From Azospirillum brasilense (GTDB lineage: Bacteria > Pseudomonadota > Alphaproteobacteria > Azospirillales > Azospirillaceae), in NCBI RefSeq assembly GCF_022023855.1, contig NZ_CP059449.1, positions 916,501 through 980,500 on the forward strand: a DNA stretch of 64,000 bases, read 5' to 3'. Shown here in pieces: positions 4,904 through 18,150 of the stretch (within the stretch, counting starts at the first letter, position 1; each line of letters opens with the position of its first letter). The position numbers were made by a program, and so were the translations under genes. The notes beneath the pieces are model-generated. The model did not search any database, was not told where the DNA came from, and worked only from the letters and a program-made list of their open reading frames with translations.

Positions 4904-5491
4904 CTAACTCTCCCCGACCAGCGGCACGTTCATCGCGACGACCGACGGCGTCCCGTCCTCCGCGACCCGGAAGCGGTGGGCGCAGCCGTCGGTCAGGCGG
5001 TGGCCGGGCTTGCCCACCATGTCCCAGCCGGTGGCCAGCGCGTAGAGCGCCCGCATCACCCCGTTGTGGGCCACCGCCCCGGTCGGCACGCCTCCGGCGC
5101 CCACCTCGGCCAGCCAGGGAATCAGCCGCGCCTGCACATCGCGCGGGCGCTCCCCGCCCGGCGCCCGGAAGTCGAGGCCCATCCGCTCGCGGTCCGCGGT
5201 CAGGGCGCCGCTCGCCCGCAGCTCCTCCAGCAGGCGGCCTTCCCACTCGCCCCAGCCCATCTCGACCAGACGCGGTTCCGGCACCGGGTCGAGGCCGAGC
5301 AGCCGGGCGGTCTCCCAGGCCCGCCGCTTCGGGCTGGCGACCCAGCGGTAGCCCAGAACGTCCGGCGGCAGCCTCCAAGTGGCGACTCGGGCGCGGCCCT
5401 CGTCGGACAGCGGCTCGTCGATGCCGCCCTGGAGACGGTGCGCGGCGTTCCAGGCGGTCGGCCCGTGGCGCAGGATGATGAGGTCGGTCAT
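4904..5491 (-). CDS. Histidine phosphatase family protein
   Basis: A 195-residue member of the phosphoglycerate-mutase-like superfamily. The N-terminal ILRHGPTAWN carries the phospho-accepting RHG motif, GWGEWEGR the acidic residue, and VAHNGVMRAL the second catalytic His. Start and stop context: its ATG overlaps the end of the upstream glycosyltransferase gene by 4 bases, so it is translationally coupled to it. Substrate is unknown; small SixA/CobC-like members act on sugar phosphates, nucleotides or phosphohistidine. The coupling hints at sugar-phosphate or glycan metabolism, which is inference. Confidence 0.88.
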   Translation of the reverse strand: MTDLIILRHGPTAWNAAHRLQGGIDEPLSDEGRARVATWRLPPDVLGYRWVASPKRRAWETARLLGLDPVPEPRLVEMGWGEWEGRLLEELRASGALTADRERMGLDFRAPGGERPRDVQARLIPWLAEVGAGGVPTGAVAHNGVMRALYALATGWDMVGKPGHRLTDGCAHRFRVAEDGTPSVVAMNVPLVGES

Positions 5492-6699
5492 GGATTCCCT
5501 TTCCGCGCGGCGCGCCGGACAACGGTGTCCAGAACCGCCACCGCGTTGGTCAGATCGTGCTCCGCAGCGGCGATGGCGCGCGCCGCCTCGCCGAAGCGGC
5601 GGCGTTTCCCAGGGTCGTCGAGCAGCGCCCGGACGGCGGCGGCGAAGGCCTCCGCGTCGCCCACCGGCGGCAACAGGCCGGTCACCCCGTCGCGCACCAC
5701 GTCCGGCACCCCCCCGGTCCGCCCCGCCACCACCGGCAGCCAGGCGGCCTGGGCCTCCAGCAGGGCCATGCCGTAGGCCTCGTTCACCGCCGGCCAGACC
5801 ATCAGGTCGGCAGCGGCGTAGAGAGCGGTGAGGGCATCCGAACTTTGCTGGCCGAGGATCAAGACTCCCTCCCCTGCGGAGCGGGGGAGGATTGGGGTGG
5901 GGGCAAGCGCACCTCCCCCGAACAGCGTCTCGATCCGGGGGCGAGCGGGGCCGTCGCCGGCGATGAGAAGGTGATGCGGAGGCAAGGCACTTGCCCCCAC
6001 CCCAACCCTCCCCCGCTTCGCAGGGGAGGGAGAAAGGGCTTGCGCCAAAATCTCGTAGGAACGTTCCTTGTCGCCGCCGCGCATCATGCCGACGGCCAGC
6101 AGCCACGGAACGTCCGGCTTCAGGCCGTAACGCTCGGCCAGCTCCGCCCGGTGCCGGTCGCGCTCCGCGGCGGCGGCCGCGAAGGAGCGCGTGTCGAGGA
6201 AGGGCCGCAGCCGCACCAGCCGGTCCGGCGATTCGAGCAGCGGCAGCACCCCCTCCGCGTCGTGGCCGGCAAGGTTGACGACGGCGGCGGCTTGCCGGAT
6301 CGCCGCCTCCGCGGCGCGGTGGCCGGCGGCGAAGGGGCCGGTGGCCCGCTTGGCCGCGAAGGACGCCTCCGCCACCACATAGGGGATGCCGAAACGGCGG
6401 CTGACCGCCGGGCCGATCCAGTCCGGCGCCTTGTGATACAGGTGATACGTGAACCAGAGATCCGGCGCGTCGTCCCGCCAGCGCGCCGTCAGGCGGTCGG
6501 CGCAGCGCGCCCCCAGCGCCGCCAGGCGCTCCGCCCGGCCCGGACGGCGTCCGTCGTCCCAGCTGCGCAAGGTGCAGGCCAGCGTCACCCTGTGCCCGGC
6601 CGCCTCCAGCGCGGCCATCAGCAGCCGGGCCATGCGCCGGTCGCCCGAGGGCACCGGGTGGGTCGGGGATTTCAGCGGGGCATAAAAGGCGATGCGCAT
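5488..6699 (-). CDS. Glycosyltransferase family 4-like protein with two in-frame repeat insertions
   Basis: A 403-residue GT-B glycosyltransferase. The N-terminus (IAFYAPLKSPTHPVPSGDRRMARLL) is the acceptor-side Rossmann domain; the C-terminal donor domain has the EX7E motif (NEAYGMALLEAQ) and a typical GGVPDVV segment. Two glycine/proline-rich stretches, PAKRGRVGVG and PTPILPRSAGEG, interrupt the normal strand between MMRGGDKERSYEILAQAL and VLILGQQ. They are encoded by two inverted copies of a 43-bp repeat (5865-5907 and 5990-6032). The frame is intact through both. Upstream of the coupled phosphatase; acceptor and sugar unknown. Confidence 0.88.
   Translation of the reverse strand: MRIAFYAPLKSPTHPVPSGDRRMARLLMAALEAAGHRVTLACTLRSWDDGRRPGRAERLAALGARCADRLTARWRDDAPDLWFTYHLYHKAPDWIGPAVSRRFGIPYVVAEASFAAKRATGPFAAGHRAAEAAIRQAAAVVNLAGHDAEGVLPLLESPDRLVRLRPFLDTRSFAAAAAERDRHRAELAERYGLKPDVPWLLAVGMMRGGDKERSYEILAQALSPSPAKRGRVGVGASALPPHHLLIAGDGPARPRIETLFGGGALAPTPILPRSAGEGVLILGQQSSDALTALYAAADLMVWPAVNEAYGMALLEAQAAWLPVVAGRTGGVPDVVRDGVTGLLPPVGDAEAFAAAVRALLDDPGKRRRFGEAARAIAAAEHDLTNAVAVLDTVVRRAARKGNP
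5865..5907 (+). repeat. 43-bp GC-rich repeat, copy A, inside the glycosyltransferase gene
   Basis: Begins CTCCCTCCCCTGCGGAGC and ends GGGTGGGGGCAAG. Matches the reverse complement of 5990-6032 with only two differences over 43 positions. Translated on the minus strand as part of the host gene. Confidence 0.85.
5990..6032 (-). repeat. 43-bp GC-rich repeat, copy B (inverted)
   Basis: Inverted copy of 5865-5907, 82 bases apart. The same C-rich/G-rich core pattern (CTCCC...GGGGGAGG) recurs in intergenic DNA elsewhere in the window (14822-14844, 51731-51752, 61746-61780), suggesting a dispersed family. Confidence 0.85.
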
Positions 6700-6730
6700 C
6701 GCGGCCCCGATGTCATGGTGGAAAAAACGC

Positions 6731-7711
6731 TCAGAACGGGGTCGGTTCCCGCGCGCAGACGACCCGGTTCCGTCCGGCGGCCTTGGCGCGGTACAGCGCC
6801 TCGTCCGCGCTGGACAGCATGGCGTCCACGTCGCGCGTCCCGGCCGCGCAGCAGGCGACGCCGATCGACACGGTGAAGCGCACCGTCTCGTCCCCCACCG
6901 GAACGGCGAGTTCGGCCGTGCGGCGGCGGATGCGCTCCGCCACCATGCGCGCTCCGGCGATGTCGGTCTCCGGCAGCAGGATGGCGAACTCCTCGCCGCC
7001 GGTGCGGCCCAACAGGTCGTTCTCCCGCAGCAGGGCGCGGCAGGCGGCGGTGAAGGCCCGCAGCGCCTCGTCCCCCACGGCGTGGCCGTGGGTGTCGTTG
7101 ATGCTCTTGAAATGGTCGAGGTCGAGCATCAGCAGCGTGACCGGCCGGCCATAGCGCCGGGCGCGGGCCAGTTCCTGCTCCGCCGCTTCGACGAAATGGC
7201 GGCGGTTGGACACGCCGGTCAGCGAGTCGGTGATCGAGAGCCGGCGCAGCCGCTCCTCCGACTCCTTCAGCGCCGTCACATCGTTGATGAGGACGTAGAT
7301 GACCGGCAACCCGTCCCAGGGCAGGGGCGACATGCTGACCTGGACGCAGGTGCGCTGCCCGTCGGTGGACACCATCACCCCGTCCTGGGACCGCACCAGT
7401 TCCCGCTCGCGCAGGCAGCGCTGGAAGGCGCCCCGCTGGTCGTCGATGCCCGACTCCTCGACGAAGTCCAGGAAATGGCGCCCGACCAGGGCGTCGCCGC
7501 TCTGGCCCAGGATGCGCGCCGCCTCCTGGTTGGCGAAGACGATGCCCATTTCCTGATGGATCAACAGCCCGGCGGGCAGCAGGTCGAGCATGTCGCCCAG
7601 CTTGCTGCGCGTCAGCGACAGCTCGTGGCTGGTGGCCACGGCGTCGCTGTCGTCGTCGAAGTCGATGAAGGAAAGGATTTCCGGTTCGGGAAAGGCGGAC
7701 AGAGTCGACAT
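6731..7711 (-). CDS. PAS-GGDEF diguanylate cyclase
   Basis: Makes cyclic di-GMP from two GTP. A PAS domain (about residues 40-150) is followed by a GGDEF domain (about 165-320) with an intact active-site GGEEF at 238-242. An RxxD inhibitory site (REND, 229-232) is correctly placed five residues upstream, so product inhibition is expected. No membrane segment is seen, so it is probably cytosolic with a small-molecule or redox input. I start at the ATG; a TTG seven codons upstream (7732) is possible. It sits between glycosyltransferase genes on the same strand, fitting c-di-GMP control of envelope glycan. Confidence 0.93.
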   Translation of the reverse strand: MSTLSAFPEPEILSFIDFDDDSDAVATSHELSLTRSKLGDMLDLLPAGLLIHQEMGIVFANQEAARILGQSGDALVGRHFLDFVEESGIDDQRGAFQRCLRERELVRSQDGVMVSTDGQRTCVQVSMSPLPWDGLPVIYVLINDVTALKESEERLRRLSITDSLTGVSNRRHFVEAAEQELARARRYGRPVTLLMLDLDHFKSINDTHGHAVGDEALRAFTAACRALLRENDLLGRTGGEEFAILLPETDIAGARMVAERIRRRTAELAVPVGDETVRFTVSIGVACCAAGTRDVDAMLSSADEALYRAKAAGRNRVVCAREPTPF

Positions 7712-7752
7712 GACGTCGCAAAGGTGGAGCAAAGCCGCACTCTATCCCGTCA

Positions 7753-9027
7753 TCAGCCGCCGTGCAATGCACAGCATCCCCCAAACGGCATAAAGGAGGG
7801 TTGGCTATTTCCGGTTGTGAAACGATCGTGAAGCCGATCGATGCCTGAATCGCTGCCGAAGTCGCGGCGTACCCGCGCGGCACCCGCCGCACCCAGCGCC
7901 GCGCGGCGGGCCGGGCCGCGGAGCAGCGACTCGAGCGCGCCGGCCAGCGCGGCGGGGTCCTCGGGGTCCACCAACGTGCCGGTGACCCCATCCTCGATCA
8001 GCTCGGCCACCGCGGCGGCGCGGGTGGACAGGCAGGCCAGCCCCTGGCTCTGCGCCTCCATCAGCACGTTGGGCAGCCCGTCACGGTCGCCGTCGCGCGC
8101 GGTGCGGCAGGGCAGGACGAACAGGTCGGCACGGCGGTACTGGGCGATCACCGCGTCCTGGGCCTTCGCCCCCTGCCAGTCGATCCGCCCCTCCAGCCCC
8201 AGCGCCGCCGCCTGCGCCTTCAGCGCGGACAGCCGGTCGCCGCCGCCGATGTGGGTCCAGCGCCAGTGCAGCCCGGCGGGCAGGCGCGCCAGCGCGTCGA
8301 GCAGCAGGTCGAAGCCCTTCTTCTCCACCGCCCGCCCGACCGACAGCAGCCGCACCGGGTCGGCGGGGTCGGACCCGTCGCGCGCCGGGCGCGCGTCCGG
8401 CGGGGCGGGGAAGCGGCTGAAGTCCAGGCCGTGGTAGAGCAGGTCCACCCGCTCCGGCTCAGGCGCCAGTTCGCGCAGGCGGGCGAGGCCGAGCGCGGTG
8501 CAGGTGACGCCCCAGCGAGCCTCGGCCAGCTTGTCCCGCAGGTCCCAGTCCGGCGAGGTCCAGATGTCCTTGGCGTGGGCGGAAAAGCTCCAGGGCAGGC
8601 CGGTCAGCAGTGCTGTGTAGCGCGCGACGCTGGCCGGGGTGTGCAGGAAATGGGTGTGCAGCCAAGTGACGTCCGCTGGCAGGTCCGCCGCCAGCACGCA
8701 GGCCTGGCCGAAGCGGCGCGCGCGGTTGCGGCTGGGGTCGCGCCGCAGGTCGGCCAGCCAGGCGGCCCGCGCCGCCGGCCAGCCGGGGCGCCGCCGCGCC
8801 GCGGCCAGCGCGCGCAGCACGCGGGCGGGCGCGTCGTGCAGATATTCGGGCAGATAGGTCACCGGGGCGGTGACGCGGCGGTTCAACTCGTGCACCGCCT
8901 TGTCGGTCGGTTGACGCAGGCTGACGATCAGTTGACGCAACCCCCGCCGTTCCAGCCCCAGAATCTCCTGCGCGATGAAGGTTTCCGACAGGCGGGGCCA
9001 GCCCTTGACGATGACGGCAATGGTCAC
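7753..9027 (-). CDS. Glycosyltransferase family 4 protein
   Basis: A 424-residue GT-B enzyme starting IAVIVKGWPRLSETFI, the opening seen in exopolysaccharide and colanic-acid-type glycosyltransferases. The donor domain shows LLSVGRAVEKKGFDLLLDAL and a DGLPNVLMEAQSQG motif, equivalent to EX7E with Asp in place of the first Glu. The GTG start overlaps the stop of the upstream glycosyltransferase by 4 bases, so the two are coupled. A cytosolic or membrane-associated role in building a surface glycan is likely; acceptor and sugar cannot be deduced. Confidence 0.9.
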   Translation of the reverse strand: MTIAVIVKGWPRLSETFIAQEILGLERRGLRQLIVSLRQPTDKAVHELNRRVTAPVTYLPEYLHDAPARVLRALAAARRRPGWPAARAAWLADLRRDPSRNRARRFGQACVLAADLPADVTWLHTHFLHTPASVARYTALLTGLPWSFSAHAKDIWTSPDWDLRDKLAEARWGVTCTALGLARLRELAPEPERVDLLYHGLDFSRFPAPPDARPARDGSDPADPVRLLSVGRAVEKKGFDLLLDALARLPAGLHWRWTHIGGGDRLSALKAQAAALGLEGRIDWQGAKAQDAVIAQYRRADLFVLPCRTARDGDRDGLPNVLMEAQSQGLACLSTRAAAVAELIEDGVTGTLVDPEDPAALAGALESLLRGPARRAALGAAGAARVRRDFGSDSGIDRLHDRFTTGNSQPSFMPFGGCCALHGG

Positions 9028-10256
9028 GCGGCGTCCCCGGCGGCCATCTGGCGTTCCGTGGCGCAGGGTTCGGAGGACAGCTCCGGAAGGTAGCGCGCCG
9101 ACAGGCGGTTGACGCTCTCCAACCCGCCGAGCAGGCCCGGCACTACGACCGAGGAGGGCGGCGCCTGCCAGGGCAGCCGCCGCAGCGCCGCCGCCATCGC
9201 CGCGGCGTCGCGCACCCCGTCGTCCATCAGGACGGAGACCAGACCCAGCTCCTGCGCGCGGGCGGCGCGGATGGTCTGCTCGCGCCGTGGCACCTCGCGC
9301 GGGACGATCAGCGCCTTCTTGTCGAAGGACAGGATCTCGCAGAAGGTGTTGTAGCCGCCCATGGCGACCACCCCCACCGCCCCTTGCATCAGCCGCTCGA
9401 TCCGCGCCTCGAAAGCGGTGGCCTCGACGTTGGGCAGGGCTTCCGCCCGGGCCAGGAACTCGGCCTGGAGGTCCGGCTGCATGAAGGGGCCGAACACCAG
9501 CACGGCGCGGTAGGGGATGCCGGGATCGCTCTCGTAGGCGCGCAGCACCCAATCGACCAGCGCCTCGCCGTCGCCGCCGCCGCCGGGGGTGACCAGGATG
9601 TAGGGTTCATCCGGCAGACCGGGACCGTGCGGGACCGCCGGGGGCACGGTGCGGTGCAGGTAGCCGGTGTAGACCATCTTGTCGCGCACCGACTGCGGGA
9701 CCTCGATCCCCTCCAGCGGGTCGCAGATCTGCGGCAGGCCGTAGGCCCAGATCTCGTCATACAGGTTTTCCAGTGCCGGCAGGACCTTCTTGCGCTCCCA
9801 CTCCGGGGCGAGCAGGGCCGGCTCGTCCATCACGTCGCGCAGGCCCAGAACCAGCGGCACGCCGCGGCCCTTCAGAAGCTCCAGCGTCTCCCGCACCTCG
9901 CCGCGCAGGCCGAGCGGTTCCTTGTCCACGATGAACAGGTCGGGCTGGTAGATCTCCGCCGTGTGGCGGATCAGCGAGGCCCGCATGGACAGGATCTCGT
10001 CGATGTCCAGATGCAGGTTCAGCGCCGTGTATTCCCCGTTGCGCAGCTTGATGACGCCGGGGATGCGCACGAAGTCCACCCGCGTGCGGAAGTCGAAGCT
10101 GCCGACGATGGGCGAGCCGGACAGGATCAGCACGGACAGGTTGCTGTAGCGTTCCACCAGCGCATGCGCGATGGCCCGGCAGCGGCGCAGATGGCCGAGG
10201 CCGAACGTGTCATGGCTGTAGATGAGCACGCGGCCCGAGGTCGGACGTTCGCTCAT
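9024..10256 (-). CDS. MurG-like glycosyltransferase (GT28-type C-terminus)
   Basis: A 410-residue protein opening RVLIYSHDTFGLGHLRRCRAIAHAL, with a C-terminal GGYNTFCEILSF segment followed by PREVPRREQTIRA, like the UDP-sugar binding half of MurG. It is not murG itself: length, neighbours and N-terminus differ. First gene of a leftward glycosyltransferase pair, divergent from the unusual ABC exporter with 193 bases between. A second, distant MurG-like gene stands on the other arm at 13592, so the island has two enzymes of this type. Confidence 0.85.
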   Translation of the reverse strand: MSERPTSGRVLIYSHDTFGLGHLRRCRAIAHALVERYSNLSVLILSGSPIVGSFDFRTRVDFVRIPGVIKLRNGEYTALNLHLDIDEILSMRASLIRHTAEIYQPDLFIVDKEPLGLRGEVRETLELLKGRGVPLVLGLRDVMDEPALLAPEWERKKVLPALENLYDEIWAYGLPQICDPLEGIEVPQSVRDKMVYTGYLHRTVPPAVPHGPGLPDEPYILVTPGGGGDGEALVDWVLRAYESDPGIPYRAVLVFGPFMQPDLQAEFLARAEALPNVEATAFEARIERLMQGAVGVVAMGGYNTFCEILSFDKKALIVPREVPRREQTIRAARAQELGLVSVLMDDGVRDAAAMAAALRRLPWQAPPSSVVVPGLLGGLESVNRLSARYLPELSSEPCATERQMAAGDAA

Positions 10257-10449: not shown

Positions 10450-13089
10450 ATGGAATCCAGCATTTTCCGATTCATCCTTCGGCACAGCGTCCGTCAGCAG
10501 ATCGTGCTGACCCTGATGACCCTGGCGTCCTTTCCCTTCCTCTATGCCTCGCTCGACCTTCCGAAGAGGATCGTCAACGAGGCGATCGCCGGGAAGAAGC
10601 TGCCTGAATCCTTCCTCGGCTTCCATCTCGATCAGGTGACCTACCTGTTCGTCCTATGCGGACTGTTCCTGACTTTGGTGCTGGTCAACGGCGCGTTCAA
10701 GTACGTCATCAACACCTACAAGGGCCGGCTGGGCGAGCGGATGCTGCGCCGGCTGCGCTACGAGCTGTACGTGCGCGTCCTGCGCTTCCCCCTGCCCCGC
10801 TTCCGCAAGATGTCGCCCGGGGAGATCATCCCCATGATCACGGCGGAGGTGGAGCCGCTGGGCGGCTTCATCGGGGACGCCATCGCCATCCCGGTGTTCC
10901 AGGGCGGCACCCTGCTGGTCTACATCGCCTTCATCTTCGTCCAGGACCCGGTTCTGGGGGCAGCGGCGGTGTCGCTGTACCCGTTCCAAGGCTGGCTCAT
11001 CCCACGGCTGCAGCGCAAGGTCAATCAGCTTGGCAAACAGCGCGTACGTGCCATGCGCCAGATCGCCGACCGGATCGGCGAGACGGTGTCCGGCATCCAG
11101 GAGGTGCACACCCACAACACCGCGTCCTGGCATCTCGCCGATCTCAGCCACCGCCTGGGCGACGTGTACCGTATCCGTTTCGAGATTTACCAAAGAAAGT
11201 TTTTTGTCAAATTCCTAAACAATTTCATAAACCAGCTGACCCCGTTCTTCTTCTATTCGATCGGCGGCTATCTGGTGATCCACGGCCAGCTGTCCTTCGG
11301 CGCGCTGGTCGCGGTGCTGGCCGCCTACAAGGACTTGGCCGCTCCTTGGAAGGAGCTTCTCGATTGGTACCAGCAGAAGGAGGACAACCGGATCAAGTAC
11401 GAGCAGGTGGTGGAGCAGTTCCATGTCCCCGACCTGCTGGCCGAACGCCTGCTGCGCGAGGAGGAGGACGTTCCGTTCAAGGGCAGCCTGTCCTTCCGCA
11501 ACGTCGCGTTCGGGGAGGACGGCGGGTCGCCCATCCTGGAGGGGGTGACCTGCGACATCCCGCTGGACGGCCACACCGCGCTGATCGGCGTCGGCTCCGG
11601 GCGGGACGAGCTGGCGCAGCTCGCCGCGCGCGTGCTGCTGCCCTCGTCGGGCCAGATCCGGCTGGGCGAGCGCGACTATGCGGAGCTGCCGGAGAGCGTG
11701 ACCGGGCGGCGCGCCGCCTATGTCGGCGCCACCCCATACCTGTTCTCGGCCTCGCTCTACGACAACCTCGTCTACGGGCTGCGCCACCGGCCGCTGCGTG
11801 AGAACGGCGACAGTGAGGAAGCGGCGGAGCGGCGCAAGCGCCGGATGGCCGAGTCGGTGCTGTCCGGCAACGCCACCGACGACGTGGACGCCGACTGGAT
11901 CGACTACGCCGCCGCCGGCTGCGACGGGCCGGAGGACCTGAAGGCCCGCATCCTGCGCGTGGTGACGATGGTCTCGCTTCAGGACGACGTGTACGGCATG
12001 GGCCTCAACCGCACCGTCGATCCGGAGCGGCGCCCCGACGTGGCCGCCCGCGTGCTGGAGGCGCGCGACGCCATGCGCGCCACGATGCTGAACAACCCGG
12101 ACCTGGGGCGGCTGGTGGAGCGCTTCGACCCCGCCCGCTACGCCGCGAACGCTACGCTGGCGGAAAATCTGCTGTTCGGCACGCCGGTCGGCCCGATCTT
12201 CCAGACCGACGCGCTGGCCTCCAACCCCTACATGCTGCATGTGCTGGACAAGGTGGGGCTGACCGACACCATCCTGGAGACCGGCCACAAGGTGGCGGAA
12301 ACCATGGTCGAGCTGTTCGCCGGCCTGCCGCCCGGCCACGAGTTCTTCGAGCGCTTCTCCTTCATCGGCTTCGCCGAGCTGCCGGAGTATCAGGGCATCC
12401 TGGCACGCACCGCGAAGGAGGGGCTGGGCGCGCTGCGGCCCGAGGAGCGGACGCGCCTGATGACCCTGCCCTTCAAGCTGATCGGCGCCCGCCACCGTCT
12501 GGGTCTGATGACCCCGGACCTGGAGAAGAAGCTCTTGCAGGCGCGGCACCTCTTCGCCAGCGACCTGCCGGCGGACCTGAAGCACGCCGTCGCCTTCTTT
12601 GACCCGGAGGCCTACAACGCCGCAGCCAGCATCCAGGACAACATCCTGTTCGGCAAGATGGTCTACGGGCAGGCGCAGGTGCAATCCAAGGTGGGCCGCA
12701 TCGTGGCGGATCTGGTGGACCAGCTTCACCTGCGCGACACCATCGTGGAGGTCGGGCTGGACCATCCCGTGGGGGTCGCCGGGTCGCGCCTGTCCGCGGC
12801 GCAGCGCCAGAAGGCGGCGCTGGCCCGCGCCCTGCTGAAGCGGCCGGACCTGCTGGTGCTGAGCGAGGCGACCAGCGGACTGGACACCAGCAGCCAGACC
12901 AAGGTGCATTCCGCCATCATGGGGGAACGCAAAGGATGTGGTCTTGTGTGGGTTCTGCACCGCGCCGGCTTGGCACGGGCGTTCGAGCGAGTCATTGTAA
13001 TGAAGGACGGGCGAATCGCCGAACATGGGCGCTTCGACGAGTTGAACAGGCCCGGTACGTTGTTGCATGAATTGGTGTCCGCCGAATAA
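10450..13089 (+). CDS. Atypical ABC exporter with degenerate, expanded nucleotide-binding domain
   Basis: An 879-residue membrane protein. Residues 1-330 form a type-I exporter membrane domain. The ATPase half is abnormal: Walker A reads GVGSGRDE (380-387; invariant Lys and Ser replaced by Arg and Asp), the Q-loop Gln is missing (YVGATPYLF near 424), the signature is LSAAQ (781-785), and Walker B reads LLVLSEA (801-807; Asp replaced by Ser, Glu kept). SGLD and the H-loop His (VLHR) remain. Walker A and signature are about 400 residues apart instead of about 110. The insert repeats the post-Q-loop pattern three times (SLYDNLVYG, TLAENLLFG, SIQDNILFG). The frame is intact, so this is not a simple pseudogene. 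Followed by a cNMP-binding gene 28 bases later. Confidence 0.8.
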   Translation: MESSIFRFILRHSVRQQIVLTLMTLASFPFLYASLDLPKRIVNEAIAGKKLPESFLGFHLDQVTYLFVLCGLFLTLVLVNGAFKYVINTYKGRLGERMLRRLRYELYVRVLRFPLPRFRKMSPGEIIPMITAEVEPLGGFIGDAIAIPVFQGGTLLVYIAFIFVQDPVLGAAAVSLYPFQGWLIPRLQRKVNQLGKQRVRAMRQIADRIGETVSGIQEVHTHNTASWHLADLSHRLGDVYRIRFEIYQRKFFVKFLNNFINQLTPFFFYSIGGYLVIHGQLSFGALVAVLAAYKDLAAPWKELLDWYQQKEDNRIKYEQVVEQFHVPDLLAERLLREEEDVPFKGSLSFRNVAFGEDGGSPILEGVTCDIPLDGHTALIGVGSGRDELAQLAARVLLPSSGQIRLGERDYAELPESVTGRRAAYVGATPYLFSASLYDNLVYGLRHRPLRENGDSEEAAERRKRRMAESVLSGNATDDVDADWIDYAAAGCDGPEDLKARILRVVTMVSLQDDVYGMGLNRTVDPERRPDVAARVLEARDAMRATMLNNPDLGRLVERFDPARYAANATLAENLLFGTPVGPIFQTDALASNPYMLHVLDKVGLTDTILETGHKVAETMVELFAGLPPGHEFFERFSFIGFAELPEYQGILARTAKEGLGALRPEERTRLMTLPFKLIGARHRLGLMTPDLEKKLLQARHLFASDLPADLKHAVAFFDPEAYNAAASIQDNILFGKMVYGQAQVQSKVGRIVADLVDQLHLRDTIVEVGLDHPVGVAGSRLSAAQRQKAALARALLKRPDLLVLSEATSGLDTSSQTKVHSAIMGERKGCGLVWVLHRAGLARAFERVIVMKDGRIAEHGRFDELNRPGTLLHELVSAE

Positions 13090-13117
13090 AGCCGGCGGCG
13101 TTGAGGAGGCAGACGGC

Positions 13118-13573
13118 ATGAGCATCGCCGAAGAAGTCAATTGCCTGCGCAGGATTCCCCTGTTCGCCAACATCGACACTGCCAAGCTCAAGCTTCTCGC
13201 CTTCACCAGCGAACGGTTGAGCTTCCGGTCCGGCGACATCCTGTTCGAGCAGGACGAGATGGGCACCTGCGCCTACATCCTGCTGCGCGGGGAGGCCGAG
13301 GTGATCGTGACCGGCCCCGGCGGGCCGCTGACCGTCGCGACGCTGGGGTCCAACGAGATCGTCGGCGAGATCGCCATCCTGTGCGACGTGCCGCGCACCG
13401 CCACCGTCCGTGCCAGCACCGACCTGGAGGCGCTGTGCGTGCCGAAGGACCATTTCCTTCAGATGATCGCCGACTTCCCGCAGATGGGGCTGGAGATCAT
13501 GCGTTCCCTGGCCCACCGCCTGGAGCAGACGACGACGCGCCTGCGCGAGGTGCTGGCCGCCCAGGCGATCTGA
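13118..13573 (+). CDS. Stand-alone cyclic-nucleotide-binding domain protein
   Basis: A 151-residue Crp-type cNMP-binding domain with no DNA-binding domain. The phosphate-binding cassette is complete (GEIAILCDVPRTATV, with the Glu and Arg that hold the cyclic phosphate and ribose), so ligand binding is expected. A short C-terminal helix (EIMRSLAHRLEQTTTRLREVLAAQ) could dimerise or contact a partner. The ATG start is backed by GAGGAGG upstream. Its position directly behind the degenerate ABC gene suggests a regulatory subunit; this is inference. Confidence 0.88.
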   Translation: MSIAEEVNCLRRIPLFANIDTAKLKLLAFTSERLSFRSGDILFEQDEMGTCAYILLRGEAEVIVTGPGGPLTVATLGSNEIVGEIAILCDVPRTATVRASTDLEALCVPKDHFLQMIADFPQMGLEIMRSLAHRLEQTTTRLREVLAAQAI

Positions 13574-13591: not shown

Positions 13592-14749
13592 ATGCGTGTC
13601 CTTTTCCACGTCCAGCATCTGCTGGGCATCGGCCACGACCGCCGCGCCGCGCTGATCACCCGGGGACTGGCCGAGGCGGGCGTCGCCGTCACCGTGCTGC
13701 GCGGCGGGCATCCGGTGCCGGGGATCGTTTACGGCCCGGCGGCGGAGATCGTCCAGCTCCCCCCCGCCCGCGCCGCCGACAGCGGCTTCAAGACCCTGCT
13801 CGACGAGCACGACCGGCCCATCGACGACGCGTGGCGCGCCCGGCGCCGCGCCGCGGTTCTGGAAACCCATGAGCGGGTACGGCCCGACGCGCTGCTGATC
13901 GAATCCTTCCCCTTCGGGCGCCGCGCTTTCCGGTTCGAGCTTCTGCCGCTGCTGGAGGCCGCCAAGGCCGGCGGGGCGGTCACCGCCGCGTCGGTGCGCG
14001 ACATCCTGGTGACCAAGGCCAAGCCGGAGCGGCTGGAGGAAACCGTTTCGACGGTGGAACGGCTGTTCGATCATGTGCTGGTCCATGGCGACCCGGAGCT
14101 GATCCCCTTCGCGGCGACCTTCCCCGCCGCCGCGCGGATCGCCGACCGCATCCGCTACACCGGTTACGTCGCAGCCCCGCAGGGCGGCGCTGCGACCGGC
14201 GCCGACGGCACCGGCGAGGTGATCGTGTCGGTGGGCGGCGGCGCGGTCGGCCTGCCGCTGCTGCGGGCGGCCCTGGCGGTGCGTGCGTCAACTCCCGCCG
14301 GACTTGACGCACCCTGGCGCCTGCTGGCCGGTCCGGACGTGCCGGAGGCGGATTTCCGCGCGCTCGCCGCCGCGGCACCGCCGGGCACCGTCGTGGAGCG
14401 GGCGCGGCCCGACTTCCCCGCCCTGCTCCGCCGCTGCCGCCTGTCGATCAGCCAGGCCGGCTACAACACCGTGCTCGACGTGCTCCAGGCCGGCTGCCGG
14501 GCGGTCGTCGTTCCCTTCGCCGCGGGCAGCGAGACGGAGCAGGCCACCCGCGCCCGCCTGCTGGAGGAGCGGGGCCGGCTGGCCGTGGTCGACGAAGCCA
14601 CCCTGACCCCGGAAACCCTGGCCGCGGGCGTTGCCAGGACGCTCGCCCTGCCCCCGGCGCCGGCCATCCCGCTGCGCCTGGACGGTGCCGCCACCACCGC
14701 CCGGCTGCTGTTGGACGCGGTGGCCTACCGCCAAGGCAACAGGCGCTAA
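13592..14749 (+). CDS. MurG-like glycosyltransferase
   Basis: A 385-residue GT-B protein beginning MRVLFHVQHLLGIGHDRRAALI, distantly similar in plan to the gene at 9024. The C-terminal half contains a UDP-sugar-site-like SISQAGYNTVLDVLQAG followed by VVVPFAAGSETEQATRA. It follows the cNMP-binding gene by 18 bases and is probably in the same operon. A 9-bp inverted repeat (14283-14291 with 14304-14312) lies within the coding sequence. Sugar and acceptor unknown. Confidence 0.83.
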   Translation: MRVLFHVQHLLGIGHDRRAALITRGLAEAGVAVTVLRGGHPVPGIVYGPAAEIVQLPPARAADSGFKTLLDEHDRPIDDAWRARRRAAVLETHERVRPDALLIESFPFGRRAFRFELLPLLEAAKAGGAVTAASVRDILVTKAKPERLEETVSTVERLFDHVLVHGDPELIPFAATFPAAARIADRIRYTGYVAAPQGGAATGADGTGEVIVSVGGGAVGLPLLRAALAVRASTPAGLDAPWRLLAGPDVPEADFRALAAAAPPGTVVERARPDFPALLRRCRLSISQAGYNTVLDVLQAGCRAVVVPFAAGSETEQATRARLLEERGRLAVVDEATLTPETLAAGVARTLALPPAPAIPLRLDGAATTARLLLDAVAYRQGNRR

Positions 14750-14863: not shown

Positions 14864-15664
14864 GTGACCGCAACCGCCCCTTCCGACAGCCCGCCGCGCG
14901 CCGGTTGGGACGCGTTGACCGCCGAGCTGGACGCCTGGGCCGCTGCCGAGCGCACCGCCACCCTCTGGTGGCGTGACGACGACGCCGTCGAGCCGACGTC
15001 AGGGCTCGACCGGATGATCGCCCTGTCCGTCGAGACCGGGGCGCCGCTGGCCCTGGCGGTCATCCCCGCAGGGGTCACGGACGCCCTCGCCCCCGTTGTG
15101 GACGCGGCCCCCACCGTCACGGTGCTTCAGCATGGCTGGTCGCACATCAACCATGCCGCTCCCCCCGCGAAGAAGGCGGAGCTTGGCGCGGACCGGCCCG
15201 CCGCCGCTGTGCTGGCGGAACTGGCCGAGGGGCGGAGCGTGCTGGACCGTCGGTTCGGGCTGCGCGCCCTGCCCGTTCTGGTGCCGCCCTGGAACCGCAT
15301 CGCGCCCGGCGTGGCCGCGGGCCTGCACGGCGCGGGCTTCGTCGGCCTATCGGTGTTCGGGCCGCGACGTGTGTCAACCGTCAACATGATGTGTGTCAAT
15401 ACACACATCGATCCGGTGGCCTGGAAGAACGGCAAGCGCTTCCTGGGCGACGCGGAGTCGCTGGGCATGACGGTCGCCCATCTGCGCGCCCGGCGGCTGG
15501 GCGCGGTGGACGCGGCGGAGGCGACCGGCCTGCTGACGCATCATTTGGCGATGGACGGTGAAACCTGGGCCTTCACCGCGCGTTTCCTGACCGAGACCCG
15601 CCGCCACCCGGCGGCTCGTTGGCTGTCCGCTGATACCTTGTTCGCCGCAGAAGGACTTCGCTGA
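14864..15664 (+). CDS. Polysaccharide deacetylase-like protein
   Basis: A 266-residue NodB-like (carbohydrate esterase 4 fold) protein with GTG start. [13 protein letters not shown] supplies the Asp pair and [11 protein letters not shown] the His residues of the metal site; PPWNRIAP fits the later conserved segment. No signal peptide is seen, so it may act in the cytoplasm or be a divergent member. It ends 3 bases before the next gene and heads a tight run into the peptide importer. Residues about 168-182 ([14 protein letters not shown]) use AT-richer codons than the rest of the gene. Confidence 0.8.
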
Positions 15665-15667
15665 GAC

Positions 15668-16225
15668 ATGGCCGAGCTGCCCATGGCCAGACCCTCGACC
15701 AGAGAGACGCCGAGCGTCGCGGAGATGCGCTACCCCGCCGGGGCGCTCGCCGGCGACTACGCGCGGGCCGGGGCGGGGCTGGCACTGACGGTGCTGCCGC
15801 TGGCCTTCCTGCCCGTCATCCCCTGGATCGCCGTGCCGCTGGGGGCCTGCGCGGTGCTGTTCGCGGTCTTCGCGGCGCGCACCCTGCAACGCCAGCTGAC
15901 CCGCCTGACCATGGACGGCGAGGGCTTGCGGGCCGACGGGCCGCTGGGCGGCGCCATCCGCTGGGACGCGCTGTCCGGGCTGAAGCTGCGCTACTACGCG
16001 ACCAGGCGGGGGCGCGACGACGGCTGGATGCAGGCGGCTCTGACGGGTGGCGGCACGACCCTGCGCTTCGACAGCAACCTGGAGGGCTTCGACGCGCTGA
16101 TCGAACAGGCCGCCCTCGCCGCCGGGCGCAACGGCGTGGCGCTGACCCCGGTGACGGTGGACAATCTGATCGCCCTCGGCATCGAGCCGCCGGAGGACCC
16201 CAACGAAAAGAGGCCGGCGCCATGA
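15668..16225 (+). CDS. Small membrane protein of unknown function
   Basis: A 185-residue protein I do not recognise. Residues about 33-70 form two membrane segments ([20 protein letters not shown] and [16 protein letters not shown]). The remaining soluble part ([19 protein letters not shown]... through [16 protein letters not shown]) looks like a small beta-rich, PH-like domain. It overlaps the start of the ABC ATPase gene by 4 bases (ATGA) and follows the deacetylase by 3 bases, so it is firmly in the same operon. Confidence 0.7.
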
Positions 16226-18150
16226 GCCGCACGCTGCTCCGGGTGGAGGACCTGAAGGTCGATTTCCAGGTGCCGGGCGGCGTGGTCCACGCGGTGCGCG
16301 GCGTGTCCTTCCGGGTGCGGGCCGGTTCCACCGTCGCCCTGGTCGGGGAATCCGGGTCGGGCAAGTCGGTGGCGGCGCAGTCGATCCTGCGCATCCTGCC
16401 CCGCAACGCCGCCATCGCGGACGGGCGAATCCTGTTCGATGACGGAATCGTCAACGAGGGCCCAGTAAACAAGGGCGCAGTGAACAATGGTGGTGGCCCC
16501 GTCGACATCGCCGGGCTGAAGGCCGACGGTGCGGCGATGCAGGCGCTGCGCGGCGGCCGCATCTCGATCATCTTCCAGGAGCCGATGACCTCGCTGTCGC
16601 CCCTGCACACGGTGGGCGACCAAGTGGGCGAGGCGGTGCGGCTGCACCAGCGGGTGACCGCCCGGCAGGCCCGCGCGCAAGCCGAGGACATGCTGCGCCG
16701 GGTGCGTTTCCCCGACCCGAAGCGGGCGCTGGACACCTACCCGTTCGAGCTGTCGGGCGGCCTGCGCCAGCGCGCGATGATCGCCATGGCGCTGGTCTGC
16801 CGCCCTGCCCTGCTGATCGCCGACGAGCCGACGACCGCGCTGGACGTCACCATCCAGGCGCAGATCCTGAAGCTGATCAAGGACCTCCAGGCCGATCTCG
16901 GGATGGCCGTCCTGCTCATCACCCACGACCTGGGGGTGGTCGCCAACCTCGCCGACGAGGTGGTGGTGATGCACCGCGGGCGGATCATGGAATCCGGCAC
17001 CCGCGAGGACATCTTCGCCGATCCGCGCCATCCCTACCTGAAGGCGCTGCTGCGCGCCGTTCCGCGCTTCCACATGGCGCCGGGGGAACGGCTGGTGCCG
17101 ATCCGCTCGATTACATCGCAGGGCGGCAGCCTGCTGGAGAAGGATCACCAGCCCTGGCCGCCCGGCGCCGACGCGGCGGGGCCGCTGCTGGCGGTGGAGG
17201 GGGTGCGCAAACGCTACGGCGCGCGCAAGGCCGGCTGGTTCGGCGCCAAGGCCGGGGCGGGCACGCTGGCGGTGGACGACGTCAGCTTTGCCATTGCGCG
17301 CGGCGAATGCGTCGGGCTGGTCGGCGAGTCGGGCTGCGGCAAGACCACCCTGTCGAAGATCCTGATGCGCGCCCTGACTCCGGATCAGGGCAGCGTCCGC
17401 TTCAACGACCATGGCCGGATCGTCGACGTTCTGGGGCTGGAGGGTGCGGCCCTGACCGCCTTCCGCCGCAAGGTGCAGTTCGTCTTCCAGGACCCCTTCG
17501 GTTCCCTGAACCCGCGGATGACCGTCTTCGACATCATTGAAGAACCGCTGGTCATCCACGGCATCGGCGACGAGGCGGAGCGCGCCGCGCGGGTCAAGGA
17601 GCTGATGGGGCTGGTCGGGCTGGACGCGCGGCATCTGCGCCGCTACCCGCACAGCTTCTCCGGCGGCCAGCGCCAGCGCATCGGCATCGCCCGTGCGCTG
17701 GCCCTGCGGCCCGAGCTTCTGCTGCTCGACGAGCCGGTGTCGGCGCTCGACGTATCGATCCAGGCGCAGGTGCTGAACCTGCTGAAGGATCTGAAGGAAC
17801 GGCTCGGCCTGACCTACCTGTTCGTCAGCCACAATCTGGCGGTGGTGGACTACCTGGCCGACCGCATCCTGGTGATGTGCCGTGGGCGGATCGTCGAGTC
17901 GGCTCCACGCGAGGCGCTGTTCCGCAACCCGGTCCACCCCTACACCCGCGCCCTGCTGGCCGCCGTGCCGGAACCGGACCCCAGCCGCCCGCTGTCGCTG
18001 ACCGACCTGGAGGAAGGCCGCGCCTCCGACCCCGCGCGCTGGCCGGCCCCCTTCACCATCGACGACGACCACCAGCCCCATCTGGTCGATCTCGGCGGCG
18101 GCCATTGCGTGCGCGCCGACGCCGCCGTCCGCGTGCGGGAGGTGGCGTGA
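16222..18150 (+). CDS. yejF: Peptide ABC transporter, fused double ATP-binding protein (YejF type)
   Basis: A 642-residue cytoplasmic ATPase with two complete nucleotide-binding domains. Walker A motifs are GESGSGKS (42-49) and GESGCGKT (368-375); signature motifs are LSGGLRQR and FSGGQRQR; Walker B segments are ALLIADEPT and LLLLDEPV. Both halves carry the oligopeptide/dipeptide-type C-terminal extension. A 15-residue insertion ([15 protein letters not shown]) in the first domain comes from three 15-bp tandem repeats at 16450-16494. It drives the importer formed with the following three genes; gene order here is F-A-B-E. Confidence 0.92.
16450..16494 (+). repeat. Three degenerate 15-bp in-frame tandem repeats in yejF
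   Basis: Units GTCAACGAGGGCCCA, GTAAACAAGGGCGCA and GTGAACAATGGTGGT encode [15 protein letters not shown]. They use A-rich codons (GTA, AAC, AAG, AAT) that stand out from the flanking GC-rich codons. Confidence 0.75.

Follow-up and report, generated by a model that had tools for sequence, protein, structure and literature searches.

An ABC exporter-like protein of Azospirillum brasilense with a degenerate, enlarged ATPase domain: a candidate for regulated, ATP-independent transport

What becomes of an ATP-binding cassette (ABC) exporter when its motor appears to be dead? The question is raised by a gene at positions 10450 to 13089 of a 64,000-nucleotide stretch of the Azospirillum brasilense genome (contig NZ_CP059449.1, positions 916,501 to 980,500; here called the window). 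ABC exporters are textbook ATP-driven pumps, yet this gene belongs to a widespread family in which the motor, although apparently dead, has been kept, enlarged and tied to a likely second-messenger sensor. An initial annotation, made from the sequence alone, suggested a regulated or non-hydrolysing exporter, or a new subfamily with an added regulatory module. Here we propose, with a probability that we put only slightly above even (about 0.55), that the protein is an ABC-derived, ATP-independent transporter or gate in which the former nucleotide-binding domain (NBD), now a pseudo-NBD, serves as a docking and regulatory module. If true, this would show a primary pump turning into a regulated device that does not run on ATP. 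Taken with a related clade that has no NBD, it would present what look like an intermediate and an end stage of the change among present-day genomes, which makes the origin of SbmA-like transporters testable, and it would point to a role for a glycosyltransferase block conserved in many Alphaproteobacteria. A literature search on the family and its gene cluster found nothing about the family in open-access papers, most subscription journals lying outside its scope.

The 879-residue product is laid out as a transmembrane domain (TMD), a linker and an NBD. In Pfam, the whole protein matches PF00664 (ABC_membrane) over residues 66-290 (E 4.7e-20), and the TMD searched alone matches over the same residues (E 5.5e-21), which identifies it as an exporter-type domain; the best PF00005 stretch lies on the signature side of the NBD (residues 723-809, E 9e-10). 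The best NCBIfam match is MsbA_lipidA, at 180.8 bits against a cut-off of 602. The initial annotation had read Walker A as lacking its Lys and Ser, the Q-loop as lacking its Gln and the Walker B Asp as replaced by Ser, with the Glu, SGLD and the H-loop His still in place, and these readings were all borne out: Walker A is GVGSGRDEL (residues 380-388), the Q-loop is YVGATP, Walker B is LLVLSEATS, and Glu806, SGLD and His837 are retained. The signature is LSAAQ, so that, measured against an intact exporter, the Lys, the Ser/Thr, the Gln, the Asp and both signature Gly are gone. A further loss that had escaped the annotation is that of the A-loop aromatic residue, which stacks on adenine.

Losses of this kind extend far beyond the window. 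We scored seven canonical features (Lys, Ser/Thr, Gln, Asp, Glu, both signature Gly and His) in 247 distinct full-length members, left from 272 once identical sequences had been removed; motif columns were those of one MAFFT alignment, and the A-loop register was taken from a PDB alignment. Up to 30 of the best loci were taken from each of a class and a phylum sample, so the census is biased toward closer relatives, and a place that had been fetched twice (for example L165/L187 or L167/L189) was counted once only if the sequences were identical. Outside the census stand 6 of the 121 proteins of a search with residues 430-780, those not between 820 and 960 aa in length, together with the NBD-less relatives, the divergent third branch (L179-L183), L001, L089-L101 and matches whose loci were not fetched. 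None of the 247 members keeps more than five of the seven features, and each lacks at least two: five are kept in 3 members, four in 22, three in 87, two in 62, one in 34 and none in 39. The Walker A Lys position holds Lys in 138 and Arg in 67, and the Ser/Thr position holds Asp in 115, Glu in 79, Ser in 17 and Thr in 6. The Q-loop Gln is kept in 41 members and the Walker B Asp in 25. The residues that hold Mg2+ are the Walker A Ser/Thr, the Walker B Asp and the Q-loop Gln; all three are lost in 176 members, two in 54, one in 16 and none in 1. At the A-loop position (residue 356), no member has an aromatic residue and 225 have an acidic one. These counts show that the losses are mosaic yet family-wide. 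Local decay in this strain, which canonical Walker motifs in orthologues would have indicated, is thereby ruled out, and since the pattern recurs across the family and two segments of the enlarged NBD resemble each other far more than shuffled controls do (see below), it is neither chance nor a sequencing artefact. At residues 356 and 386 (bases 11515-11517 and 11605-11607), acidic side chains stand where the adenine and the Mg-phosphate of ATP would sit (225 and 194 of the 247 members, respectively); they possibly mark a new cation or partner contact rather than a simple loss.

The family is large and mainly alphaproteobacterial. Residues 430-780 as query returned 4415 proteins at E <= 1e-3 among 7999 scored. 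A match at E <= 1e-40, with partial and NBD-less matches counted, was present in 149 of 387 genomes of the class sample (our own included), and 39 of 397 genomes of the phylum sample had a match, 38 of them (again including our own) in the same class; the sole exception (G516) has only an NBD-less relative, on a 3.2-kb contig. Protein identity to named A. brasilense strains (L009 and L012) is 98.9%.

The NBD is enlarged as well as degenerate. From N439 to the signature Ser there are 343 residues, where a canonical exporter encoded in this genome (L005) has about 45, and the annotated insert size of about 290 residues is therefore right. A DN(L/I)xxG pattern had been reported three times within it; this holds for the first and third copies, DNLVYG (N439) and DNILFG (N731), but the middle copy, ENLLFG (N573), begins with EN. 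The possibility that the insert is a known foreign domain was ruled out by database searches: in Pfam, the whole window protein had no domain over the insert at E up to 10, and a search with 32 members gave matches in at most 2 (best E 0.034); searches against PDB profiles (best E 0.23, to an unrelated cilia protein) and PHROGs (best E 0.96) gave no family match. Its relationships lie within the NBD. In hhalign comparisons, copy 2 (residues 529-686) matched copy 3 (687-800) with a score of 83.9 over 80 columns at 31% identity, the maximum among 60 column shuffles being 19.8. In comparisons with four canonical exporters from this genome, copy 1 (415-528) scored 57.0 over 26 columns (shuffle maximum 18.7) and copy 3 scored 88.6 over 85 columns (shuffle maximum 26.3). 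Judged by these scores between copies and against canonical exporters, copy 1 is the normal Q-loop end of the domain and copy 3 the normal stretch leading into the signature, so that the extra one is copy 2, a relative of copy 3; in three dimensions, the three may form repeated helical subdomains. Family-specific stretches without a known match are also present in the insert segments. The added module of the initial annotation stands as an unmatched added segment but is not simply foreign, as part of it repeats, in tandem, the helical-subdomain segment of the NBD itself. The absence of at least two canonical features from all 247 members and of a known domain from the insert supports, as far as sequence comparison can, a non-hydrolysing protein and a new subfamily with an added module.

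Selection acts on the two halves of the protein in an unusual way. Nei-Gojobori means from ten genomes (45/45 pairs per region) gave dN/dS, the ratio of nonsynonymous to synonymous substitution rates, as 0.073 for the TMD and 0.301 for the NBD region, whereas one canonical exporter from the same ten genomes gave 0.179 and 0.147. The constraint is reversed, the TMD being tighter than the NBD, unlike in the canonical exporter; the membrane part is the most important one, and purifying selection continues to act on the NBD. An NBD ratio of 0.30 and a mosaic loss of motifs are also what might be seen under relaxed drift, with the family decaying and its NBD serving no particular function. This explanation is barely credible in the face of 27 insert columns invariant in 32 sequences, mean pairwise identities of 0.54 for copy 2 and 0.51 for copy 3 in the 80 named loci (the best 80 of 531 confirmed loci, to which all counts out of 80 refer), and a match in 149 of the 387 class genomes.

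Further evidence concerning the TMD comes from relatives that consist of this domain alone. Six such loci were identified (L173-L178), and a search with one of these proteins returned 597 proteins at E <= 1e-3 among 8000 scored, within length limits. Gx4GK[ST] and SGGQ were absent from all 120 proteins listed out of these 597 in a pattern scan that is itself insensitive, and BLAST at E 1e-6 found no NBD near the six NBD-less genes. At least 94% of the pseudo-NBD group, and likewise of the NBD-less group, retain charge at K84, R100, D143, R198, R203, R243, K254, K294, D295, D312 and K316, compared with at most 1 of 7 canonical exporters. Conserved acidic residues in the TMD (E96, E133, E135, D143, D295, E302 and D312) are candidates, and candidates only, for proton transport. 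Residues 115-118 and 218-223, which we take to lie at the two intracellular coupling loops from the placing of these loops in exporter structures, are absent in at least 80% of 60 sampled NBD-less members. The coupling loops have lengths of 38 and 66 in 62/62 and 61/62 pseudo-NBD proteins, as in 5/7 canonical exporters, and are shortened in the NBD-less clade; an extra hydrophobic segment precedes the family's first residue in 60/60 NBD-less proteins versus 0/62 pseudo-NBD proteins. Because the charges persist in a related clade that has lost the NBD completely, and because much of the Mg-ATP machinery is missing from those NBDs that are retained, the TMD probably functions independently of ATP. 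Likewise, because canonical coupling loops and a conserved duplicated segment have been kept, the pseudo-NBD probably docks on the TMD and relays a signal, most plausibly from the cyclic-nucleotide-binding (CNB) partner described below.

An ATP-independent mechanism is made plausible by two precedents. SbmA is proton driven, has no NBD and no coupling helices, and carries an added TM0, and SLiPTs are proposed to derive from YddA-like proteins (PMC13316013); MsbA stripped of its NBD carries out delta-pH-driven ethidium efflux, less efficiently than the whole protein (PMC4979069). SbmA/BacA, the NBD-less peptide transporters of the SLiPT family, share with the window protein an ABC exporter-type TMD, which in the window protein is proposed to work without ATP, and in the NBD-less clade, as described for SLiPTs (PMC13316013), the coupling-loop segments are likewise missing and a hydrophobic segment has been added at the N-terminus. 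The window protein differs in its large pseudo-NBD, its duplicated helical segment and its CNB partner; neither it nor the pseudo-NBD group shows the absent NBD, lost coupling helices and extra TM0 of SLiPTs, and the window TMD and three NBD-less relatives had no match to the SbmA_BacA family at E 10. With MsbA and the homodimeric type IV exporters, the window protein has in common the TMD, the TMD-NBD order and coupling loops of canonical length, and it differs from them in its degenerate ATPase motifs, duplicated helical segment and reversed TMD/NBD constraint.

A likely regulatory part lies outside positions 10450-13089, in the next gene, which encodes a protein of 168 aa as listed or about 151 aa from its likely start, with a CNB domain as the sole recognised domain. 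Read from the bases, its probable start is the ATG at 13118, just downstream of GAGGAGG, and not 13067, so that, contrary to the list of open reading frames (ORFs), it would not overlap the ABC gene. The phosphate-binding cassette (GEIAILCDVPRTATV) has its Arg in 80/80 named loci and its Glu in 77/80 (Asp in 3/80), the entry for L081 coming from a more distant CNB gene. In 76/80 named loci the CNB gene follows the ABC gene on the same strand by no more than 150 bp, and in 3 by no more than 700 bp; in the 80th, L081, the contig ends 153 bp past the ABC gene. The transporter and the CNB domain share a single frame in L079, in L080 and in 12/12 divergent Azospirillum loci (L103-L114), and in-frame fusions also occur in 10 of 64 other loci, representing 8 distinct places. 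In CRP and PKA regulatory subunit type CNB proteins, the cassette carries the same Glu and Arg, and the partner is likely to be a cyclic-nucleotide sensor; it differs from them in having only a CNB domain recognised and in standing beside or fused to the ABC gene in 79/80 named loci. In this respect the initial annotation needs correction, the likely regulatory part being this partner, adjacent or fused. The L103-L114 loci, from other Azospirillum genomes, encode a 38%-identical version whose Walker A can no longer be recognised (most read GTNALALRRL there) and whose C-terminus carries the fused CNB domain; in L112 the frame extends to 1349 aa.

Overall, a mechanism can be sketched in which the TMD would be the working part, with its family-specific charged residues, and the NBD would have become a pseudo-ATPase, much of its fold being kept and the A-loop, Walker A/B, Q-loop and signature residues for Mg-ATP being largely lost. 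The helical subdomain, which borders the TMD in exporters, is partly duplicated, and through the retained coupling loops the pseudo-NBD would dock on the TMD and relay a signal. The CNB partner, adjacent or fused, would gate the TMD through this platform, and transport would be facilitated, or else powered by an ion gradient in the way that SbmA is. As a guess from gene neighbourhood, the likeliest cargo would be a product of the neighbouring glycosyltransferases, either a glycan or a glycolipid. In this scheme we infer the absence of ATP hydrolysis, the docking role, the gating by cyclic nucleotides, the energy source and the cargo. More tentatively, and well short of even odds, the protein may be a cyclic-nucleotide-gated, ATP-independent transporter or translocator of lipid-linked glycans in which the dead ATPase, enlarged through its duplicated helical segment, acts as a signal adaptor, the NBD-less relatives then forming a second NBD-less lineage, independent of SbmA, in copper-resistance clusters.

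Copper-resistance genes stand next to the NBD-less gene in four of the six loci (L173, L174, L175 and L177). Pfam recognises CopB, a multicopper oxidase, a cupredoxin and PCuAC in L173, a multicopper oxidase and CopB in L177, and a cupredoxin and a metal P-type ATPase in L174; the copper genes of L175 and the remaining ones of L174 were assigned by similarity to those confirmed by Pfam. No copper-resistance genes were seen in L178, and L176 is a 3.2-kb contig. These relatives bear on the idea that the window protein is not a transporter at all and that its TMD is an anchor or sensor of a signalling or scaffold protein that organises glycosyltransferases on a cyclic-nucleotide cue. A degenerate motor, a CNB partner and a glycosyltransferase block would all fit such a protein. 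That the TMD is the most constrained part, with many conserved charged residues, and that NBD-less relatives stand beside copper-resistance genes, where the block's glycosyltransferases were not found, make it rather improbable.

Several observations weigh against ATP independence or against its supporting arguments, and some of them favour a nucleotide-regulated exporter whose NBDs bind ATP weakly, with hydrolysis absent or very slow, and which relies on binding only, like the degenerate sites found in CFTR and in heterodimeric exporters. The P-loop Lys (138/247), the catalytic Glu (159/247) and the H-loop His (133/247) are retained in many members, for which reason weak nucleotide binding by the NBD is possible, and a dN/dS of 0.30 amounts to purifying selection and implies that the NBD has some function. 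Individual members come closer to the canonical state: in L132 the K, T, D, E and H are intact, but the Q-loop Gln is missing and the signature reads LSGAQ; 4/247 combine K, S/T, D and E; both signature Gly are kept in 3/247 (P0032, P0077 and L150); and L065 has all three Mg2+-shell residues but neither Lys nor Glu. The similarity of copy 1 to the other copies is confined to short stretches, namely the later helical part for copy 2 (27.8 over 21 columns; shuffle maximum 20.3) and the Q-loop part for copy 3 (27.9 over 22 columns; shuffle maximum 21.1), and copy 2 matches canonical exporters only marginally (24.9 over 15 columns; shuffle maximum 22.4). In a tree, the NBD-less clade is nested in the pseudo-NBD clade with support of 83/85; since this support is moderate and the outgroup branches are saturated, we do not rely on the nesting. 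Finally, BLAST found an intact exporter-type NBD in one of the 80 neighbourhoods, about 1.9 kb downstream (L053:14518-16167). Against weak ATP binding, the A-loop aromatic is absent from 247/247 members and replaced by an acidic residue in 225, the Walker A Ser/Thr position is acidic in 194/247, and the gene persists in L103-L114 despite an unrecognisable Walker A; we therefore regard an exporter regulated in this way as unlikely.

The intact frame in L053 bears also on whether the protein forms a heterodimer in trans, with an intact exporter subunit from elsewhere in the genome supplying the working site. Degenerate sites are known in heterodimeric exporters, and the likeness to these and to CFTR/SUR lies in degenerate nucleotide motifs within an exporter fold; here, however, the window gene has no adjacent intact partner site, and every motif region of its only NBD is affected. 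An adjacent intact partner is unsupported across the family, L053 having the one exporter-type frame found in the 80 loci, and the initial statement that none is present beside this gene proved correct. Intact NBD frames in 53/80 loci were nearest to a peptide-importer ATPase; these emerged from the BLAST scan, pattern scans for NBD motifs being insensitive (13 NBDs in the 80 loci). The gene is single copy in the A. brasilense genome, its next best match there being a generic exporter at 72.7 bits. Since there is neither an adjacent intact partner here nor a close paralogue in the genome, the heterodimer analogy drawn in the initial annotation is not supported. An unlinked intact partner elsewhere in the genome is possible, but these points, and an NBD-less clade without coupling-loop segments, render pairing in trans decidedly improbable, and we favour the ATP-independent transporter or gate.

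The glycosyltransferase block surrounds the ABC and CNB genes (Table 1). The GT28-like gene is divergently transcribed and lies within 600 bp of the ABC gene in 66/80 named loci. In the window, the second GT28-like gene and the genes for the 266-aa and 185-aa proteins lie to the right of the CNB gene, whereas in most other loci they lie to the left of the ABC gene on the other strand. The 266-aa protein presumably resembles NodB-type polysaccharide deacetylases.

Table 1. Coordinates of the pseudo-ATPase gene, its parts and its neighbours in the window
Feature	Position	Strand	Basis or distribution
Second GT4-type glycosyltransferase	5488..6699	-	PF00534 E 7.6e-26; match in 67/80 loci, a count that may include the other GT4 gene
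439-aa ORF inside glycosyltransferase block	6672-7991	-	no Pfam match; 6/80 loci, all within L009-L016 (Azospirillum, Skermanella)
GT4-type glycosyltransferase, conserved block	7753..9093	-	PF00534 E 7.2e-31; match in 73/80 loci
GT28-like glycosyltransferase, divergently transcribed	9024..10256	-	PF04101, 23.3 bits vs cut-off 22
Pseudo-ATPase ABC exporter-like protein, 879 aa	10450..13089	+	ORF; single copy in genome
Exporter-type TMD, residues 1-325, most constrained part	10450..11424	+	PF00664 E 5.5e-21; dN/dS
Degenerate first NBD half: A-loop (residue 356), Walker A (380-388, bases 11587-11613), Q-loop	11470..11736	+	
Copy 1 of Q-loop/helical-subdomain segment, residues 430-528, motif DNLVYG	11737..12033	+	homology over short stretches only
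Copy 2, extra copy, residues 529-686, motif ENLLFG	12034..12507	+	hhalign to copy 3
Copy 3, residues 687-778, motif DNILFG, runs into degenerate signature	12508..12783	+	hhalign to canonical exporters
NBD C-terminal half: signature SRLSAAQRQK, Walker B Asp to Ser (12850-12876), D-loop, H-loop	12784..13044	+	
CNB domain protein	13118..13573 (ORF listed 13067-13573)	+	PF00027 E 2e-21; GEIAILCDVPRTATV cassette
Second GT28-like glycosyltransferase	13592..14749	+	PF04101 E 1.6e-10; match in 73/80 loci, in some only a paralogue at about 25% identity
Conserved 266-aa protein	14864..15664	+	match in 55/80 loci; no Pfam match at E 0.5
Conserved 185-aa putative membrane protein	15668..16225	+	49/72 non-Azospirillum named loci (L017-L088); no Pfam match at E 0.5
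Fused peptide-importer ATPase adjoining conserved block	16222-18150	+	cluster member in 49/72 non-Azospirillum named loci

Two further groups of relatives were encountered. Relatives L018, L081 and L087 lie in metagenome-assembled genomes labelled Anaerolineae, Arenicellales and Competibacteraceae, reflecting either horizontal transfer or misbinned contigs. The third branch (L179-L183) has frames of 863-1016 aa in which the TMD and NBD have strongly diverged; its NBD is also degenerate as far as read, and the insert motifs (for example DPARYNHQATVGENILFGEAVGP and ASLEENILFGR) are conserved.

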